A DNA stretch of 64,000 nt, from NCBI GenBank assembly GCA_902513955.1, contig CABXOW010000003.1, positions 1-64,000 on the forward strand, written 5' to 3'. Under the pieces are notes generated by a model that was given only the letters and a program-made list of their open reading frames with translations, was not told the DNA's origin and made no database searches. Positions 39,256 through 51,373 of this stretch are shown piece after piece (position 1 is the first letter of the stretch; each line of letters opens with the position of its first letter). The stretch is from an uncultured Pelagibacteraceae bacterium. GTDB taxonomy: Bacteria > Pseudomonadota > Alphaproteobacteria > Pelagibacterales > Pelagibacteraceae. Position numbers and translations under genes: made by a program.

Positions 39256-40200
39256 ATGACTAAATTAAAAGGTCTTTTATTAACAGAAGGAATGCACGGA
39301 ATGATAAGCCAAGTTGAAGGTTTAGCTAAAGCTTTAGATATAGATTTCACACACCATACGGTTGAACTAAATAATTTTTGGAAAGTGATTCCTCCTAAGT
39401 TGACACCTGTTTCACAAAATGTTTATAAAAAAATTGATCATGATGATTTTGATGTGATTATATCTTGTGGGCGTAAAAGCGTTATTCCATCAATTCATTT
39501 AAAAAAAATTTCAAATAAAAAAGTATTTAATATCCATATTCAAGACCCAAAAGTGGATTTAAATAATTTTGATTTTATTGTCGCTCCAGAACATGATGCA
39601 ATACAAGGTAATAATGTAATTAGTACCAAAGGAGCAATTCATTATCTTACAGAAAATGAGATTAATGAAAGTAAAGATTATTTAAATTCTTTTATTAAAA
39701 AAGACGAAAGAAAAATTTGGACTTTAATTTTAGGCGGTCCTACCAAATATTATGATTATTCAACAAAGAATATGAAACATATTTTTACGATGTTGTATAA
39801 GTTATTAAAAAAACATGATTTTCAATTGGTAGTAATCCCGTCCATGAGAACACCAATTAATACCATTCATTATGCTAAAGAATTTTTTGGCGATAATCAT
39901 ACAATTATAATGGATGTTGATAAAAAAGCATATTTATCAGCTCTAGCAATAGCTGAAAATATTATAGTTACATGCGACTCTAGTTCAATGATTTCGGAGG
40001 CAGCTTTGACTGGTAAACCAATTTATATAGCAAGTATTTTACCTAAGAAAAATGATAAAAGATTTCAAAGATTTAGAAATTTATTTAGAGAATTAAACAT
40101 AACCAGAAATTTAGGTGAGGAAGTAGAAAATTGGAACTATCAAAAGCTAGATGAAACGAATAAAGTAGCAAACATTATTAACCAAAAAATTAATTCTTAA
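39256..40200 (+). CDS. Mitochondrial fission ELM1-like family protein
   Basis: ELM1-like: MHGMISQVEGLAKALD; LILGGPTKYYDYS; VTCDSSSMISEAALTGKPIYI. Confidence 0.8.
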   Translation: MTKLKGLLLTEGMHGMISQVEGLAKALDIDFTHHTVELNNFWKVIPPKLTPVSQNVYKKIDHDDFDVIISCGRKSVIPSIHLKKISNKKVFNIHIQDPKVDLNNFDFIVAPEHDAIQGNNVISTKGAIHYLTENEINESKDYLNSFIKKDERKIWTLILGGPTKYYDYSTKNMKHIFTMLYKLLKKHDFQLVVIPSMRTPINTIHYAKEFFGDNHTIIMDVDKKAYLSALAIAENIIVTCDSSSMISEAALTGKPIYIASILPKKNDKRFQRFRNLFRELNITRNLGEEVENWNYQKLDETNKVANIINQKINS

Positions 40201-40867: not shown

Positions 40868-41395
40868 TTAAAGCTCTTTATTAGCAGTTAAAATTTTATT
40901 AATTTTAATTAATATTCTCCACCCATCTAAATTAACAATTTTTTTTTCATATTTCTTTTTTACCAAATCAAATGAAGAATTAAATCTAGGTAGTTCAACA
41001 ATTTCACAGCTATTGTTTTCGGCAATATCAACAGCTTTATTGGTAAGCAGCAGATAAACTTGTTTTTCTAAAACAGGACTTGAAGAGATTAAATTTTCTA
41101 CAACTAAACATTTAGAAAATTCTTTTTTAGCATTTTTAGAAAGGCCTTTATTTATAATGTCTTGCATTGAATAAATTAGCAAACCAACGTTGTATAAGGA
41201 ATTATTTTTTGCAACCAAGATACCGTTCGACTCTTGTTTTAGAACTAATCTAATATAACTTTTTAATCTATCTAATCCCCAAGATGGAAATTCTTCAGCT
41301 AATAAAGGCAAAATACCTATTAAGTTTAAATCACTATCTTGAAATCTTAAAATATTGAGGCCAGGCAGGTTGTTAATATTATTTGTACTAAGCAT
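40868..41395 (-). CDS. GNAT-like protein, uncharacterised
   Basis: GILVAKNNSLYNVGLLIYSM; CLVVENLISSSPVLEKQVYLLLTNKAVDIAENN; divergent from the fnr-like gene. Confidence 0.4.
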   Translation of the reverse strand: MLSTNNINNLPGLNILRFQDSDLNLIGILPLLAEEFPSWGLDRLKSYIRLVLKQESNGILVAKNNSLYNVGLLIYSMQDIINKGLSKNAKKEFSKCLVVENLISSSPVLEKQVYLLLTNKAVDIAENNSCEIVELPRFNSSFDLVKKKYEKKIVNLDGWRILIKINKILTANKEL

Positions 41396-41428
41396 ATCTT
41401 GTATCTATCTTAAATTAAGAGGAAATGT

Positions 41429-41442
41429 TTGATCTAAATCAA
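41429..41442. promoter_or_regulatory. FNR box TTGATCTAAATCAA upstream of fnr
   Basis: Perfect TTGAT-N4-ATCAA. Confidence 0.85.
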
Positions 41443-41474
41443 AAACAATTTATACTTTGATTATATATTTTGGT

Positions 41475-42191
41475 ATGCAGTCAGCACAATTAAATAAAGA
41501 ATTTAACAAAAAGAGTAGATGCTCAGAGTGCAATATTAGACCATACTCATTTTGTAGATGTTTACAGGAAGAAAATCTTAAAGAATTTTCAAATATTTCA
41601 TCAGATAAAAAATTTCAAGATAAAGCAAACATTTTTTTACAACAAGATGATGCTAAAAATATTTACAATATTACTGAAGGAAATGTCAAAATTTATCAAT
41701 TAATTGATGATGGTCGTATTCAGATAATTGGTTTTCTCTACCCCGGAGATTTTTTTGGCTCTTATAAAAATGGTAAATATAATTATTGTGCAGAAGCTAT
41801 TGGTGATGTGCGCGTATGTGTTTTTGAACAGAAAAAACTAGATGAATACATTGATAAAAATATGGTTCTTGCAAAAGAACTTTTAAACCAAACATCTCAC
41901 GAATTAACACTGGCTCAAGATAGAATGGGTGTTTTAGGAAAATTAGATGCAACCGAACGACTTGCTAAATTTTTGATGAATATATCAGAACAAAGAAAAA
42001 GAATTGGCTGGCAAAATAATCCGATAAGTTTACCAATGATCAGACAAGATATAGCTGATTATCTAGGTTTAACGATTGAAACAGTAAGTAGAGAAGTATC
42101 TAAATTAAAAACTTCAAATATAGTTAAAGTCTTATCTTCTAAGCAAATCTATATTAATGATTTTAATAAATTATCTAATCTTTCAAAATAA
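41475..42191 (+). CDS. fnr: FNR-family (Crp/Fnr) transcriptional regulator with N-terminal Cys cluster
   Basis: SRCSECNIRPYSFCRCL N-terminal Cys cluster; cNMP-binding domain; recognition helix LTIETVSREVSKLK; start set at internal ATG 41475. Confidence 0.9.
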   Translation: MQSAQLNKEFNKKSRCSECNIRPYSFCRCLQEENLKEFSNISSDKKFQDKANIFLQQDDAKNIYNITEGNVKIYQLIDDGRIQIIGFLYPGDFFGSYKNGKYNYCAEAIGDVRVCVFEQKKLDEYIDKNMVLAKELLNQTSHELTLAQDRMGVLGKLDATERLAKFLMNISEQRKRIGWQNNPISLPMIRQDIADYLGLTIETVSREVSKLKTSNIVKVLSSKQIYINDFNKLSNLSK

Positions 42192-42201
42192 ATTAAATAG
42201 C

Positions 42202-42218
42202 CTCAGTATTTAACTGAG
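42202..42218. terminator. Hairpin between convergent fnr and hsp20 genes
   Basis: CTCAGT-ATTTA-ACTGAG. Confidence 0.5.
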
Positions 42219-42231
42219 ACTATTCATAATA

Positions 42232-42675
42232 TTATTGTCTGCTAGTAATTGGTATTTCCTTAACATATTTTGGCAAAGGTTTTTCTTCTCTCAACTTAAT
42301 TGACAACAAACCTTTTTCCATAATTGCTTCTTTGACTTTTACATCTTTACCAATAATAAAGCTGGCGCAGATATTTTCTTTTTCAACACCTTTATATAGA
42401 TATTCTTTATCATCTTTTTCAATTTTATTATTTGAAGTAGATTTTACTGTAAGAACATTATCTTCAACACTGACTTTGACATTTTTTTTATCAATACCAG
42501 GTAATGCAACCTCAATGTTGTAATCTTGTTTTCCTATCCTTGTAATATTGTATCCACCTCTGTTGGTTTCAAAAGCATCCAACTCTCTATGATGAATATC
42601 CTCAAAATGTTTAAACATATCATCAAAACCAACTGAAAAAGGTTTTAACGAGTCTATAATTGATAGTGATTTCAT
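42232..42675 (-). CDS. Hsp20/alpha-crystallin small heat shock protein
   Basis: IEVALPGIDKKNVKVSVEDNVLTVKS; C-terminal IPI motif; strong SD AAAGGAG. Confidence 0.93.
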   Translation of the reverse strand: MKSLSIIDSLKPFSVGFDDMFKHFEDIHHRELDAFETNRGGYNITRIGKQDYNIEVALPGIDKKNVKVSVEDNVLTVKSTSNNKIEKDDKEYLYKGVEKENICASFIIGKDVKVKEAIMEKGLLSIKLREEKPLPKYVKEIPITSRQ

Positions 42676-42723
42676 ATTTCTCCTTTCTATTAAATTAAAC
42701 TAACAAAACGTGAAAAAAAAAAT

Positions 42724-42737
42724 TTGGTTTAAATCAA
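42724..42737. promoter_or_regulatory. Imperfect FNR box TTGGTTTAAATCAA (hsp20 side)
   Basis: One mismatch to TTGAT-N4-ATCAA. Confidence 0.55.
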
Positions 42738-42749
42738 AATTATGAATTA

Positions 42750-42763
42750 TTGATTTTGATCAA
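42750..42763. promoter_or_regulatory. FNR box TTGATTTTGATCAA
   Basis: Perfect TTGAT-N4-ATCAA between divergent hsp20 and a small TM gene. Confidence 0.85.
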
Positions 42764-42835
42764 AACTGATATTTTTTGATGCATATCATTGCAAAAATTA
42801 ATCATAAAAATATATTAGTGATGAAAGGAGTAATA

Positions 42836-43006
42836 ATGAACTACATGTTAACTAACAGGCCTTATCATGGTAAGGCTAATATTGCGATTGCAATGATATT
42901 CATTGCATTTGCGGTTATGTTGATTACTGTTTATATGCCAGAATTTACTTCTAATCTTAAGGCAGGAGTAGGTGGTACTGGTTTAGATTACAATCAAATA
43001 CCATAA
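42836..43006 (+). CDS. 56-aa single-TM protein, uncharacterised
   Basis: MNYMLTNRPYHGKANIAIAMIFIAFAVMLITVYMPEFTSNLKAGVGGTGLDYNQIP; SD AAAGGAG before ATG 42836. Confidence 0.65.
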   Translation: MNYMLTNRPYHGKANIAIAMIFIAFAVMLITVYMPEFTSNLKAGVGGTGLDYNQIP

Positions 43007-43042
43007 TATGAAAAATAGATGGGTCCGGACCCCAGTTTGAAA

Positions 43043-43056
43043 TTGATTTAAATCAA
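43043..43056. promoter_or_regulatory. FNR box TTGATTTAAATCAA
   Basis: Perfect consensus; centre 40.5 bp upstream of ATG 43090. Confidence 0.85.
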
Positions 43057-43089
43057 TAACAAATTTTAAGAAAAAAATATTTTTTAATT

Positions 43090-43188
43090 ATGAAAATTCA
43101 CAATCTTGTAAAAACTTTGATACTAGCAATAGCCATAAGTTCTTTAATTACATTTGCTACTGTTCTGATTTCACCATATCTTTTCTAG
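43090..43188 (+). CDS. 32-aa TM micro-protein
   Basis: Manual ORF MKIHNLVKTLILAIAISSLITFATVLISPYLF* at constant distance from an FNR box. Confidence 0.5.
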   Translation: MKIHNLVKTLILAIAISSLITFATVLISPYLF

Positions 43189-43190
43189 AA

Positions 43191-43251
43191 TAGGCCTCAT
43201 CATTAATGAGATAATATTAATCAGTTTAGGGTAAAAAAATGATGAGACCTA
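43191..43251. other. Long inverted repeat / structured RNA candidate
   Basis: Arm taggcctcatcatt (43191-43204) vs aatgatgagaccta (43238-43251), 13/14 complementary. Confidence 0.55.
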
Positions 43252-43282
43252 CTTATTTATAACAAAATAAATCTTAATATTT

Positions 43283-43296
43283 TTGATTCATATCAA
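43283..43296. promoter_or_regulatory. FNR box TTGATTCATATCAA
   Basis: Perfect consensus; centre 40.5 bp upstream of ATG 43330. Confidence 0.85.
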
Positions 43297-43329
43297 TTTT
43301 TTCTTTTTAAATTTCTTTAAAAAAAAATC

Positions 43330-43971
43330 ATGTCAATTAAAGATCTAGTTTATAAAGTTCCAGGTTTATCATTTGATGTTAATAGACTGGTTGATACTTA
43401 TAGAGAAATCAAAAGAAAAAAAGAATTTGATCAAGGTGATGGGTCAGTGTCACATATAGATAGTATTTCTCTTAATAAAATTCCAGGTAATGATGACAGT
43501 ACATCGGGAAAATATTCATGGGGACTTTACTGGACAAAACCAGATAGTTCAGGCCAAGAAGTTGCTAGAGCTGATTATATTGAAGAAAACAATTTTACTG
43601 AGTTTTTACCAGAGTTTGAAAACACATATTTTAAATTTGTTTACGATATATTATCTAGAAGATTCGCTTTGGGAAGAACTCGAATCCTAAAAAAAGGACC
43701 TAGATCAACATTAAGTTGGCATAAAGATCCAGAACCAAGGTTGCATATACCAATTATTACTAATCCAGGGTGTAGATTTGTAATTGAAGACAGATCTTTT
43801 CATCTACCTGCAGACGGTGGAGTATGGATAGTCAATGCAAAAAAATACCATAATTTTTTTAATGGCGGAGAAGAAGATAGAATACATTTAGTGGCGACAC
43901 TTCCACATAGCAAATTATTTACTAAAAGAAAATACACTTATAATCAATTATGGGATCAATGGGCGAGCTAG
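43330..43971 (+). CDS. Aspartyl/asparaginyl beta-hydroxylase-like Fe/2OG protein
   Basis: LSWHKDPEPRLHIPIIT...NAKKYHNFFNGGEEDRIHLVATLP. Confidence 0.7.
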   Translation: MSIKDLVYKVPGLSFDVNRLVDTYREIKRKKEFDQGDGSVSHIDSISLNKIPGNDDSTSGKYSWGLYWTKPDSSGQEVARADYIEENNFTEFLPEFENTYFKFVYDILSRRFALGRTRILKKGPRSTLSWHKDPEPRLHIPIITNPGCRFVIEDRSFHLPADGGVWIVNAKKYHNFFNGGEEDRIHLVATLPHSKLFTKRKYTYNQLWDQWAS

Positions 43972-44087
43972 ATCTAAATTTTTTAGCAAGTTTTCTAGCA
44001 TGGTTAATTATAGCTAATTTTTTATTTATAATTTTTGCAAGTGGGTTAGGTTGGTTGTTTTATTCAGGTGGAAATCCTACGCAATAA
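43950..44087 (+). CDS. ~45-aa TM micro-protein
   Basis: Manual ORF MGSMGELDLNFLASFLAWLIIANFLFIIFASGLGWLFYSGGNPTQ*, overlaps the end of the preceding gene. Confidence 0.5.
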   Translation: MGSMGELDLNFLASFLAWLIIANFLFIIFASGLGWLFYSGGNPTQ

Positions 44088-44127
44088 ATTTAATTCTGTG
44101 TAAAAAAAGTCGATAGTCAATTTTACT

Positions 44128-44265
44128 TTAAAACTTTTTCATTATGCTTAGGTATGAGTTTTCTTCATATTGACCATGATAATTTGGATGATTTGTAGTC
44201 ATGTAAAGAAAAAAACACGGCAAAAATAATACTAAAAAAATAAAAATTAATGAAATACGCTTCAT
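44128..44265 (-). CDS. 45-aa secreted/TM micro-protein
   Basis: Manual ORF MKRISLIFIFLVLFLPCFFLYMTTNHPNYHGQYEENSYLSIMKKF*. Confidence 0.45.
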   Translation of the reverse strand: MKRISLIFIFLVLFLPCFFLYMTTNHPNYHGQYEENSYLSIMKKF

Positions 44266-44308
44266 GATTATCATGAGCTATAAATAGATTTTTAGTTTAT
44301 TAAGTTTA

Positions 44309-44322
44309 TTGATCTAGAACAA
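44309..44322. promoter_or_regulatory. Imperfect FNR box TTGATCTAGAACAA
   Basis: One mismatch. Confidence 0.4.
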
Positions 44323-44334
44323 AAATATTTAAAA

Positions 44335-44348
44335 TTGATTTAAATCAA
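44335..44348. promoter_or_regulatory. FNR box TTGATTTAAATCAA
   Basis: Perfect consensus; centre 40.5 bp upstream of ATG 44382. Confidence 0.85.
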
Positions 44349-44381
44349 ATACTAATTTTTTTTTTATTGTATTTATTCAGA

Positions 44382-44552
44382 ATGTCATTACCGATGTTTT
44401 TTGCAATCACCTATCTACCTTTTGTGGTCTTTAGTGCTTTCACTTGTACTTTTGAAGGTAAAGCAGCAAAGTTATTTAAAATTTTATCTTTAATTTTTGC
44501 AACAATGTCTTTATTTATTTATATACTTTTTATTAAGAATTTAATTAATTGA
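44382..44552 (+). CDS. 56-aa two-TM micro-protein
   Basis: MSLPMFFAITYLPFVVFSAFTCTFEGKAAKLFKILSLIFATMSLFIYILFIKNLIN (start moved from 44367 to ATG 44382). Confidence 0.6.
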   Translation: MSLPMFFAITYLPFVVFSAFTCTFEGKAAKLFKILSLIFATMSLFIYILFIKNLIN

Positions 44553-44562
44553 CACAAATCAA
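44549..44562. promoter_or_regulatory. Near-perfect FNR box TTGACACAAATCAA
   Basis: One mismatch; upstream of nirK. Confidence 0.55.
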
Positions 44563-44574
44563 ATTATAAAAACT

Positions 44575-44588
44575 TTGATCAAGATCAA
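44575..44588. promoter_or_regulatory. FNR box TTGATCAAGATCAA of nirK
   Basis: Perfect consensus, centre 41.5 bp upstream of the nirK ATG. Confidence 0.88.
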
Positions 44589-44622
44589 ATAAAATTTTGA
44601 ATCAAGTATTAACGTAGTTTTT

Positions 44623-45708
44623 ATGAATACAAAAAATTATATATCTATTTTCATCTCGTTATTATTAATTTCAATTACATTACAGGCAAAAAGTGGTGAA
44701 GCAGACAAGCTTCCTGTAGTTATCCAGGAACTAGTGCCGGCACCATTAGTTCCAGTTCACAACATAGTTGCTAAAGGGGGACCTAAAGTAATTAAAGTGA
44801 GAATGAATATTACAGAAAAAGTCATCACTATTGATAAACAAGGAACAAAGTTCAGAGTTTTTGCTTTTAATGATAGTGTTCCAGGACCACTTATCGTTGC
44901 TCATGTTGGTGATTATATTGAGCTAACATTAGTCAATCCTAAAAAAAATAACTTTGAACACAATTTAGATTTTCATGCAGCAACAGGTGCTTTAGGTGGA
45001 GGAGGTCTTACACATATTTTACCAGGTGAAGCAGTAATACTAAGATGGAAAGCAATTAAACCAGGAGTATTTGTTTATCACTGTGCTCCAGGTGGTGCGA
45101 TGGTGCCATGGCATGTTGTTAAAGGAATGAACGGTGCTGTTATGGTTTTACCAAGAGATGGATTGAAAGACAGGGAAGGAAATCCAATCACATATGACAA
45201 AGCATTTTACATTGGTGAGCAGGATTTTTATCTTCCAAAAGATGCTAATGGAAATTTCAAAGAATATATTCACCCAGGTGATGGTTTTAGTGATGTTTTA
45301 GAAGTGATGAAAACATTAACACCTACCCATGTTGTATTTAATGGATCCGAAGGTGCTTTAGAGGGAGATAATGCTTTGACTGCAAAAGTGGGTGAAACAG
45401 TAATGTTTATTCATGCGCAAGCAAATAGAGATACACGACCTCACTTAATTGGTGGACATGGTGATTATGTGTGGCCAAACGGATCGTTTAATGATCCACC
45501 AAGAACAAATCTAGAGACTTGGTTTGTACCAGGTGGTGCGGCTGGAGCAATGATTTATAAATTTAGACAACCAGGAACTTATGTTTATCTGAATCACAAT
45601 CTTATTGAAGCGTTCATCTTGGGTGCAAAAGCTGAAGTGAAAGTAACAGGTAAATGGAACAATGATTTAATGGAACAATTAATGGAGCCTACAAGAATTG
45701 TAGATTAA
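44623..45708 (+). CDS. nirK: Copper-containing nitrite reductase
   Basis: Two cupredoxin domains; T1/T2 Cu ligand motifs [50 protein letters not shown]. Confidence 0.93.
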
Positions 45709-48154: not shown

Positions 48155-51100
48155 TTAAATATCTTGAAGAGAAGTTACTTCTAATTTTTTAGTTTTAAGA
48201 GATTTGATTGCTTCCAAACATGCTTGAGCAGTTGACATATTGGTACAATAGGGAACTTTATTTTTAAGTGCCGCTCTTCTAATGGCGATCGCATCACTAA
48301 TTCTATGCTCTCTGTTTCCACCGCCCGTATTAATAACGAGTGCAATTTTTTTAGAGTCCAAGACATCAACTATATGCGGGGATCCGGTACTTACTTTATT
48401 AATAATTCTACATTTCATTCCATGTTTTTGAATATATTCAGCAGTTCCTCTAGTTGCACATAAAGAGAAATTTAATTTAAGCAGTTGTTTTGCTAAATCA
48501 ATTCCTTCATCTTTATGAGAGTTTTTTAAAGAGACGAATGCAAGACCTTTTTTTGGAAGTGAGTTTGCTGCAGCAATTTGACTTTTGGCAAATGCCATAC
48601 CAAAATTTTTATCAAAACCCATAACTTCCCCAGTTGATTTCATTTCAGGTCCTAAAAGTAAGTCACTGTTAGGGAATTTATTAAAAGGAAATACTGCTTC
48701 TTTAACGGCATACATGCCCTTAGATTTATCTTTTAAATTAAACTTAGATAATTTTTCACCAGCCATTACACGTGATGCAATCTTAGCAAGAGGGAGGCCT
48801 TTAGCTTTTGAGACAAATGGCACTGTTCTACTTGCTCTAGGATTTACTTCAATTACATAAATTTCATCTTTTTTGATCGCAAATTGAATATTCATGAAAC
48901 CTTTAACTTTTAAAGCCAAAGCTAATTTTTTAGTTTGGTTTTCGATTTCTTTAATTAAAAATGGTTTAATTGATACTGGGGGTAAACTACAAGCGGAGTC
49001 TCCTGAGTGAATTCCAGCCTCTTCAATATGCTGCATGATACCTGCAACATGAACTTGTTTTCCATCAGATATAGCATCGACATCTACTTCCATTGCATGA
49101 TCAATAAATTTATCAATTAAAATTGGATTTTCTTCTGCTGCTTTAAATGCTTCTTCAACAAATTTTTTAAGTTGTTTTTTTTCATGAACAATTTCCATTG
49201 CTCTTCCACCTAATACATAAGAGGGCCTAACCATTAAAGGTAAACCAATTTTTTCAGCTATTTTAATTGCTTGTTTGAATGTTTTAGCAATTCCACTTTT
49301 TGCTTGTTTTAACTTTAATCTAATTAGTAGATTTCTAAATTGATCTCTGTCCTCAGCTAAATCTATAGATGTGTACTGCGTTCCTAAAATTGGAAGTTTA
49401 TTGTCATGTAAAAATTTAGCTAGTTTAATTGGAGTTTGACCACCGAATTGAGCAATAACACCAACTAAGTTTCCTTTTTCTTTTTCTATTATATTGAAGA
49501 CATATTCTTCTTTTAGTGGCTCAAAGTATAATCGATCACTGGTATCGTAATCAGTTGAAACAGTTTCAGGGTTACAATTGACCATGATAGTCTCAAAACC
49601 TGCATCTTTTAATGAAAAACTTGCCTGACAGCAGCAATAATCAAACTCTATTCCTTGTCCTATTCTATTAGGTCCTCCACCCAATATTATAATTTTTTTC
49701 TTAGCTGAAGGATCTGCTTCACACTCAGAATTAATTGAAAAATTTCGTTGATATGTTGAATACATATAAGGAGTGAAGGATTTAAATTCAGCCGCACAAG
49801 TATCAACTTTTTTAAATACAGGTAATATTTTAAGGGCAGTTCTTTTTCGTCTTACAACATCTTCTGAAGTATTAGTTAATTCTGAAAGTTTTTTATCAGA
49901 AAATCCAATGGATTTTATTCTATTAAATTCATTAAAGTCTCTTGGTAATCCTTTGTTTTTGATTTTATTTTCATTATCTACAATTTCTTTAATTTGATTT
50001 AAGAACCAAGGGTCGATTTTAGATAAAGTGAAAATTCTTTTTAAATTGATTTTTTTTCTAATTGCTTCTGCAATTAACAAAATTTTATTTGGAATATTTT
50101 CTTTAAGCTTCTTTTCAATTTGTTTTTTATTTAAATCAAATATTCTATCTAAACCTGAAAAACCAGTTTCAAGAGAAACCAATGCTTTTTGAAGGGACTC
50201 TTTAAAGTTTCTACCAATTGCCATTGCTTCTCCAACTGACTTCATAGAAGTGCCTAATGTTGCTGGAGAAGTTGAAAATTTTTCAAAAGTAAATCTTGGA
50301 ATTTTAGTTACTACATAATCAATGCTTGGTTCAAATGATGCTGGAGTTACTTTTGTGATCTCATTTTTTAATTCATCTAGCGTGTAACCAACAGCAAGTT
50401 TTGCAGCAACTTTTGCAATAGGAAAACCAGTTGCTTTTGATGCAAGAGCAGATGAACGAGACACTCTTGGGTTCATTTCAATTATAACCATTCGTCCATT
50501 TTTAGGATTGATTGCAAATTGAACATTTGAACCACCTGTTTCAACTCCAATTTTTCTAAGACAGGCAATGGATGCATTTCTCATTACTTGGTATTCTTTA
50601 TCCGTCAAGGTAAGAGCAGGGGCGACAGTAACAGAATCCCCTGTATGTATTCCCATTGGATCAATATTTTCAATTGAACAAATAATTATACAGTTGTCTT
50701 TTTTATCCCTCACAACCTCCATCTCAAATTCTTTCCAACCCTCTAAACATTCTTCAACTAATACTTGGCTCACAGGTGACTCGTGTAATCCATTTTTAAT
50801 AATTTTTAAGTAGTCTTTTTTGTTTTTAGCAATTCCACCTCCAAGACCTCCAAGAGTAAACGCAGGTCTTATGATTGCAGGTAAACCAATTTTATTTAAA
50901 ACTTTAGATGCTTGATTGATGTTATTAACGATTTCAGATTTAGGAAGATCTAAACCGATATCGATCATATTTTTTCTAAACTTCTTTCTGTCCTCTGCAT
51001 TAGAAATAGCTTTAGAATTTGCACCAATAAGTTCTATTTTGTATTTTTTTAGAATTCCTTTTTTCTCAGCTTCCATTGCAAGGTTGAGTGCAGTTTGACC

Positions 51101-51373
51101 GCCCATTGTTGGTAAAATTGCATCTGGTTTTTCTTTTTTGAGAATTTTCTCTAAAACCTCTAGGGTAATTGGTTCTATATAGGTTTTGTCAGCAACATCT
51201 GGATCAGTCATAATTGTTGCTGGATTTGAGTTTATTAGTACAACTTTATAACCCTCATCTCTTAAGGCTTTACAAGCTTGTGTTCCTGAATAATCAAACT
51301 CACAAGCCTGACCAATAATAATTGGACCAGCTCCAACAACTAATATTTTTTTAAGATCTTTTCTTTTTGGCAT
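48155..51373 (-). CDS. carB: Carbamoyl-phosphate synthase large subunit
   Basis: Duplicated ATP-grasp halves; [30 protein letters not shown]. Confidence 0.97.

Follow-up and report, generated by a model that had tools for sequence, protein, structure and literature searches.

SAR11 is among the most abundant groups of ocean bacteria, and its low-oxygen members contribute to marine nitrogen loss. Here we analyse a 64,000-nucleotide (nt) stretch of SAR11 DNA (the window; contig CABXOW010000003.1 of an uncultured Pelagibacteraceae bacterium, assembly GCA_902513955.1, 1.2 Mb, 28% G+C), which contains an fnr gene and a cluster of TTGAT-N4-ATCAA sites (FNR boxes) at nearly constant distances from start codons. 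The components of this arrangement are all known; their combination, an activator site that coincides with start-codon placement across a regulon, is new. At the lambda PRM-cI promoter, an activator bound at a distance of ~42 bp promotes synthesis of a leaderless mRNA with AUG at its 5' end; that is a single phage promoter with an unrelated activator, whereas the locus described here holds a gene set under a predicted oxygen sensor. Class II FNR/FnrL promoters, in E. coli and at nirS/nosR2 and hemA3/dnrE of Dinoroseobacter shibae, resemble those of the window in having a TTGAT-N4-ATCAA-type site ~40-42 bp from the transcription start site (TSS) (PMC5398030). In D. shibae, an alphaproteobacterium, Fnr/Dnr sites lie 39.5-43.5 bp from TSSs determined by RNA-seq, and single boxes serve divergent pairs, a further likeness seen for denitrification genes at 39.5/41.5 bp (PMC5398030). 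That study reports TSS distances and makes no mention of leaderless messages, whereas most genes of the island described here have their predicted TSS at the start codon. Zheng et al. 2011 (PMC3160421) described TA-led leaderless genes and scored 2 of 117 alphaproteobacterial genomes as having leaderless genes; these resemble the genes of our locus in having TANNNT some 12 bp ahead of the start codon and in lacking a Shine-Dalgarno (SD) sequence, but no regulator site was tied to them. Our literature search turned up no paper that reports mapped TSSs in Pelagibacter or regulons of leaderless messages driven by FNR.

Morris et al. 2026 (PMC12816887) described a SAR11 nirK-cbb3 region between ELM1 and carB, with genes for crp-fnr, nirK, pseudoazurin, an Fe(II)/2-oxoglutarate (2OG) oxygenase and an R2 ribonucleotide reductase. 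They note the crp-fnr gene and already suggest FNR control and low-oxygen expression; their paper contains no promoter or box analysis. The box-rich locus of the window is an island bounded by ELM1 (39256-40200, Pfam match 1e-80) and a carB-like open reading frame (ORF, 48155-51373), and contains fnr, hsp20, three small ORFs, an Asp/Asn hydroxylase-like gene, nirK, pseudoazurin and ribonucleotide reductase beta. With its insertion between ELM1 and carB, crp-fnr at its head and nirK inside, it is the nirK part of the described region. No ccoN-like ORF was found among the window ORFs between nirK and carB; unlike in the described region, carB directly follows the oxygenase and the cbb3 genes do not lie between. 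A near relative (G468) has ccoN, with a box 41.5 bp from its start.

The fnr product matches the Pfam domains cNMP_binding (2e-14) and HTH_Crp_2 (3e-16), both above cut-off. Its cysteines C16-x2-C19-x7-C27 and C115 are invariant in three species and provide the N-terminal triad and internal cysteine for a predicted [4Fe-4S] cluster. Matches to the NCBI curated models for FnrL, Fnr and FixK are below cut-off (best, FnrL, 148.6 bits versus a cut-off of 300), and we take the product for a divergent member of the FNR/FnrL type and not for an FnrL equivalog. Such proteins are rare, a close homologue being present in 3 of 147 family genomes, and a wider order-level search gave no FNR orthologue beyond our own. 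We identified six more FNR-bearing SAR11 genomes, seven with our own. In G472 (L028/L034), the recognition-helix region of FNR reads TIATVSRE, versus TIETVSRE or TLETVSRE in our genome and G473; the G472 boxes retain the TTGAT consensus despite this altered residue.

An initial annotation of the locus, made by a model from the letters alone, had listed six perfect boxes, all of which we found, and three boxes with one mismatch, of which there are in fact five (Table 1; the fifth, at 42984, lies within an ORF). Spacings were measured from the box centre to the A of the ATG, with gene starts read from ORFs; cross-species alignment backs the start positions of the 44382 gene family only. The five spacings quoted earlier were reproduced on recomputation: 39.5 bp for fnr, 40.5 bp for the genes at 43090, 43330 and 44382, and 41.5 bp for nirK. 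A sixth close-spaced gene had been overlooked. It encodes a 175-residue (aa) protein divergently from fnr on the minus strand, and its ATG at 41395 is 40.5 bp from the box at 41429. The 79-bp gap from 41395 to 41475 accommodates a single palindromic box together with two predicted class II promoters that point away from each other and both end at a start codon; a ccmD-like/ccoN pair in locus L121 (box 748) has the same layout, with spacings of 39.5 and 41.5 bp. When at most one mismatch is allowed, the whole window has 26 matches versus 11.5 expected (0 of 100 shuffles as high), and the 6.2-kb locus has 11 versus 0.9 per shuffled locus.

The spacing recurs in other species. The seven FNR-bearing genomes yielded 119 distinct perfect boxes, of which 61 are intergenic and have 77 ORF starts within 250 bp. 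Nineteen of these starts lie at 39.5-41.5 bp and 23 at 39.5-43.5 bp or within this 5-bp neighbourhood; the majority of the remaining 5-bp bins contain 1-5 starts. With near-identical copies removed, 57 starts within 115 bp remain, of which 15 are at 39.5-41.5 bp versus 1.3 expected (Poisson p ~1e-11), although this and the p-values below are somewhat optimistic because the groups (close-spaced, far) were assembled by hand. Across species, the close-spaced genes are fnr, nirK, cytochrome c, ccoN, CcmD-like and small membrane protein genes, a sensible set of FNR targets. The spacing is 40.5, 41.5, 40.5 and 41.5 bp for the 44382 family in four species (31-42% protein identity), 40.5, 41.5 and 40.5 bp for cytochrome c genes in three species, and 41.5 bp for ccoN. 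The broad tail of other genes includes narG at 83.5 bp and a HemN-like gene at 71.5 bp (labelled by a sequence motif only; an 80-aa piece gave no profile match). The genome-wide spacing plot, proposed earlier as a check, gives a mixed picture, with a sharp spike and a broad tail alongside it. In a control of five genomes from other alphaproteobacterial families, a small sample taken without restriction to known FNR targets, 15 intergenic boxes show no spike near 40 bp.

We also searched for -10 hexamers relative to the box, not to the ATG, with the start set so that the hexamer lies at -12 to -7. As background, the analysis drew on the window together with 320 kb of further stretches. For 17 genes with a distant ATG, the mean -10 score peaks at an offset of 28.5 bp from the box centre, a score reached anywhere in 3 of 1000 shuffles; the predicted TSS is therefore fixed at centre +40.5 independently of any ATG. 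The dinucleotide TA occurs at 28.5 bp in 22 of 36 promoters versus 12% elsewhere (p 3e-12), namely in 6/6 of our own close-spaced promoters, 7/13 of those in relatives and 9/17 of the far genes, and in 8/8 locus promoters when hsp20 and the 42836 gene are included. Boxes inside genes show no -10 peak. In 18 of the 19 close-spaced promoters, no good -35 hexamer was found at the expected place, which would fit activator-dependent promoters. In four of our six close-spaced genes, centre +40.5 coincides with the A of the ATG, and in fnr and nirK it lies within one base of it. All six genes have a predicted -10 some 12 bp ahead of the start codon and a predicted TSS at most 1 nt from the ATG, as described for leaderless genes, and the locus promoters show a site predicted near -41.5, an in-phase -10 and poor -35 hexamers, as in class II promoters. 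The initial annotation had argued that a class II FNR site would place the TSS on or next to the A of the ATG; recurrent spacing and -10 phasing, two tests independent of that argument, both agree with it.

We propose that the boxes serve the island-encoded FNR as class II activation sites. When oxygen is low, FNR whose iron-sulphur cluster is intact would bind the box and contact RNA polymerase, whose -10 contact would begin at the fixed offset of 28.5 bp, and transcription would then start at about centre +40.5. In fnr, nirK and the genes at 41395, 43090, 43330 and 44382, the start codon would lie at that base, giving an mRNA that begins with AUG, with a leader of 0-2 nt at most, and would have to be translated as leaderless. 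From these sequence data we infer that class II FNR activation of such leaderless mRNAs is the probable explanation of the boxes and their spacings. The class II reading of the FNR boxes is strongly supported by sequence, and the leaderless messages, with their exact TSSs, would follow with good but not complete confidence.

At hsp20 and the 42836 gene, the promoter geometry would be unchanged, with 15 and 13 nt containing an SD sequence inserted before the start codon. The predicted leaders, atagaaaggagaaat for hsp20 and gaaaggagtaata for 42836 (the latter with a strong SD), consist of an SD plus spacer and nothing more. The earlier observation that SD genes lie farther from their boxes holds, because of these 15- and 13-nt leaders, but it was measured from the box at 42750 and overlooked the proximal one-mismatch boxes; the flanking boxes at 42724 (hsp20) and 42776 (42836) are probably the better reading. 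The nirK orthologue in G473 has a spacing of 53.5 bp and an AAGGAG; our own nirK has 41.5 bp and none.

The SD evidence itself is of less weight. None of our six leaderless candidates has an SD (0/6), as claimed earlier for five of them, but this does not discriminate in a genome in which 24% of 117 first-in-operon genes have one; in the rest of the window it is 0/25. Because ~76% of first genes lack an SD, its absence is weak evidence for leaderlessness, and we rejected it as proof. A modest contrast is seen across species, where an SD score of -4 or below occurs in 1 of 19 close-spaced versus 6 of 15 far genes (p 0.02). Within the 117 first genes, TATAAT-like hexamers stand 11-12 bp before the ATG in 12, a small excess that suggests other leaderless genes in this genome. 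Such hexamers are somewhat frequent at -26/-25 too, weak counts that fit ~13-nt leaders.

Several observations weigh against FNR-activated leaderless messages. The common absence of SDs genome-wide is one; another is the close-spaced gene in L071, which has a strong SD. The fnr spacing is lost in G472 (45.5 or 27.5 bp) and G473 (48.5 or 27.5 bp), and two near relatives (L030, L031) share the divergent 41395 arrangement, with a GTG start at the same position. Some boxes of the far group may be non-functional. Only poor -10 hexamers are present at 43330, 43090 and ccmD, the best hexamer in several relatives is at 26.5 bp, which would leave a leader of 1-3 nt, and at fnr a plausible competing sigma70 promoter overlaps the box, with the first half-site as its -35.

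The last of these points bears on a different reading, in which FNR represses: the box would overlap the -35 of a sigma70 promoter with its -10 at 15.5 bp and a leader of ~12-14 nt, and FNR would occlude this promoter at low oxygen, with autorepression for fnr. The fnr gene of E. coli is autorepressed, and good-scoring candidate promoters of this kind are present at our own fnr (TTGATC-N16-TATACT), at fnr of G470 (TTGATT with TATAAT) and in L071 (TAGACT). A convincing -10 at 15.5 bp is found in only 3 of 19 close-spaced promoters, however, and repression predicts neither the 28.5-bp phasing common to far genes nor the ATG spike at 39.5-41.5 bp. We consider it unlikely as a general account. It could coexist with class II activation at fnr, which, given these plausible sigma70 promoters, may be both autorepressed and activated. 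An equally improbable alternative is that class II activation is real but transcription starts 2-6 nt upstream of the ATG, so that the leaders are very short instead of absent. RNA polymerase can shift its start site by a few bases, and the best hexamers at 26.5 bp include TATAGT (44382-like promoter of G472) and GATAAT (cytochrome c promoter of G473); the modal TA offset of 28.5 bp nevertheless puts the start on the A of the ATG in 4/6 of our close-spaced genes, and leaders of 2-6 nt would still be too short for an SD. Finally, although SAR11 intergenic gaps are short and most first genes lack an SD, it is very improbable that the spacing simply reflects how short the intergenic regions of a streamlined genome are and means nothing for TSS and translation, since short gaps give neither a 3-bp spike nor a fixed -10 offset common to far genes, and genus members without this FNR have only 4-22 boxes per genome versus 28 in our own.

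Outside the island, our genome has 22 perfect boxes. These look like chance, because they are mostly intragenic, the few intergenic ones lie at 60.5, 67.5, 114.5 bp or farther, and their neighbours have no obvious low-oxygen role; we rejected a genome-wide FNR regulon. Within the window, boxes form tandems at exactly 26 bp (42724/42750/42776, 44309/44335 and 44549/44575), and three other species have kept the 44309/44335 tandem in front of their orthologue of the 44382 gene. Over the loci examined there are 10 such pairs (near-identical relatives counted), also in L033, L034 and L035. In a 26-bp tandem, the second site would lie at about -66.5; tandems of 22 and 27 bp occur too. In G468, the ATG 41.5 bp from the box would open a peptide of 22 codons that looks like the NirK signal peptide, and the full gene follows at 112.5 bp; this nirK start region (L121 ~4877) looks duplicated, and an assembly error is possible. 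Relatives of the 175-aa protein adjoin fnr in other FNR-bearing SAR11, and it could act in the same response, as a regulator or as an enzyme.

Table 1 Features of the FNR-box locus (window coordinates; spacings from box centre to the A of the ATG).
Feature	Position	Strand	Remarks
Divergent gene, 175 aa, unknown family, predicted leaderless	40868..41395	-	No Pfam match
-10 TAGATA, predicted	41402..41407	-	41395 gene
Perfect FNR box	41429..41442		Common to fnr (39.5 bp) and divergent 41395 gene (40.5 bp)
-10 TATATT, predicted	41464..41469	+	fnr, 28.5 bp from box centre
fnr	41475..42191	+	CRP/FNR-family regulator, 238 aa; predicted TSS at or adjoining 41475
hsp20, Pfam HSP20	42232..42675	-	Predicted TSS 42690
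One-mismatch FNR box	42724..42737		Class II position for hsp20; 55.5 bp to ATG, TAGTTT at 28.5
Perfect FNR box	42750..42763		Centre of 26+26 bp array; predicted -66.5 upstream site shared by hsp20 and 42836
One-mismatch FNR box	42776..42789		Class II position for 42836 gene, 53.5 bp to ATG
-10 TATATT, predicted	42811..42816	+	42836 gene; predicted TSS 42823
Small membrane-protein ORF, 56 aa	42836..43006	+	Predicted leader 13 nt
Perfect FNR box	43043..43056		43090 ORF, 40.5 bp
-10 TATTTT, predicted	43078..43083	+	43090 ORF
32-aa single-helix ORF, predicted leaderless	43090..43188	+	ORF and spacing same in L031, L121
Perfect FNR box	43283..43296		43330 gene, 40.5 bp
-10 TAAAAA, predicted, weak	43318..43323	+	43330 gene
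Asp/Asn beta-hydroxylase-like (Fe(II)/2OG), predicted leaderless	43330..43971	+	Pfam Asp_Arg_Hydrox 5e-7
One-mismatch FNR box	44309..44322		26 bp upstream of 44335
Perfect FNR box	44335..44348		44382 gene, 40.5 bp
-10 TATTTA, predicted	44370..44375	+	44382 gene
Small membrane-protein gene, 56 aa	44382..44552	+	Met1 aligned in four species
One-mismatch FNR box	44549..44562		26 bp upstream of 44575
Perfect FNR box	44575..44588		nirK, 41.5 bp
-10 TAACGT, predicted	44610..44615	+	nirK
nirK, copper nitrite reductase, predicted leaderless (0-1 nt)	44623..45708	+	NCBIfam TIGR02376 1.6e-140, above cut-off

If the proposed organization is true, the regulator site lets the start codon and the transcript start be read directly from sequence, and one 79-bp gap carries two complete promoters. 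The gene-start annotation of the small proteins of the island would be corrected, and the locus would offer naturally matched leaderless and leadered genes under one activator, usable for studying leaderless translation. We put forward only tentatively, as a possibility we hold to be rather doubtful, that the FNR regulon of nitrite-respiring SAR11 as a whole is a leaderless regulon in which the activator site sets both the TSS and the start codon. Low-oxygen mRNAs of these bacteria would then need a different mode of initiation, by recognition of a 5'-AUG, perhaps by 70S ribosomes, and could be co-regulated through it.

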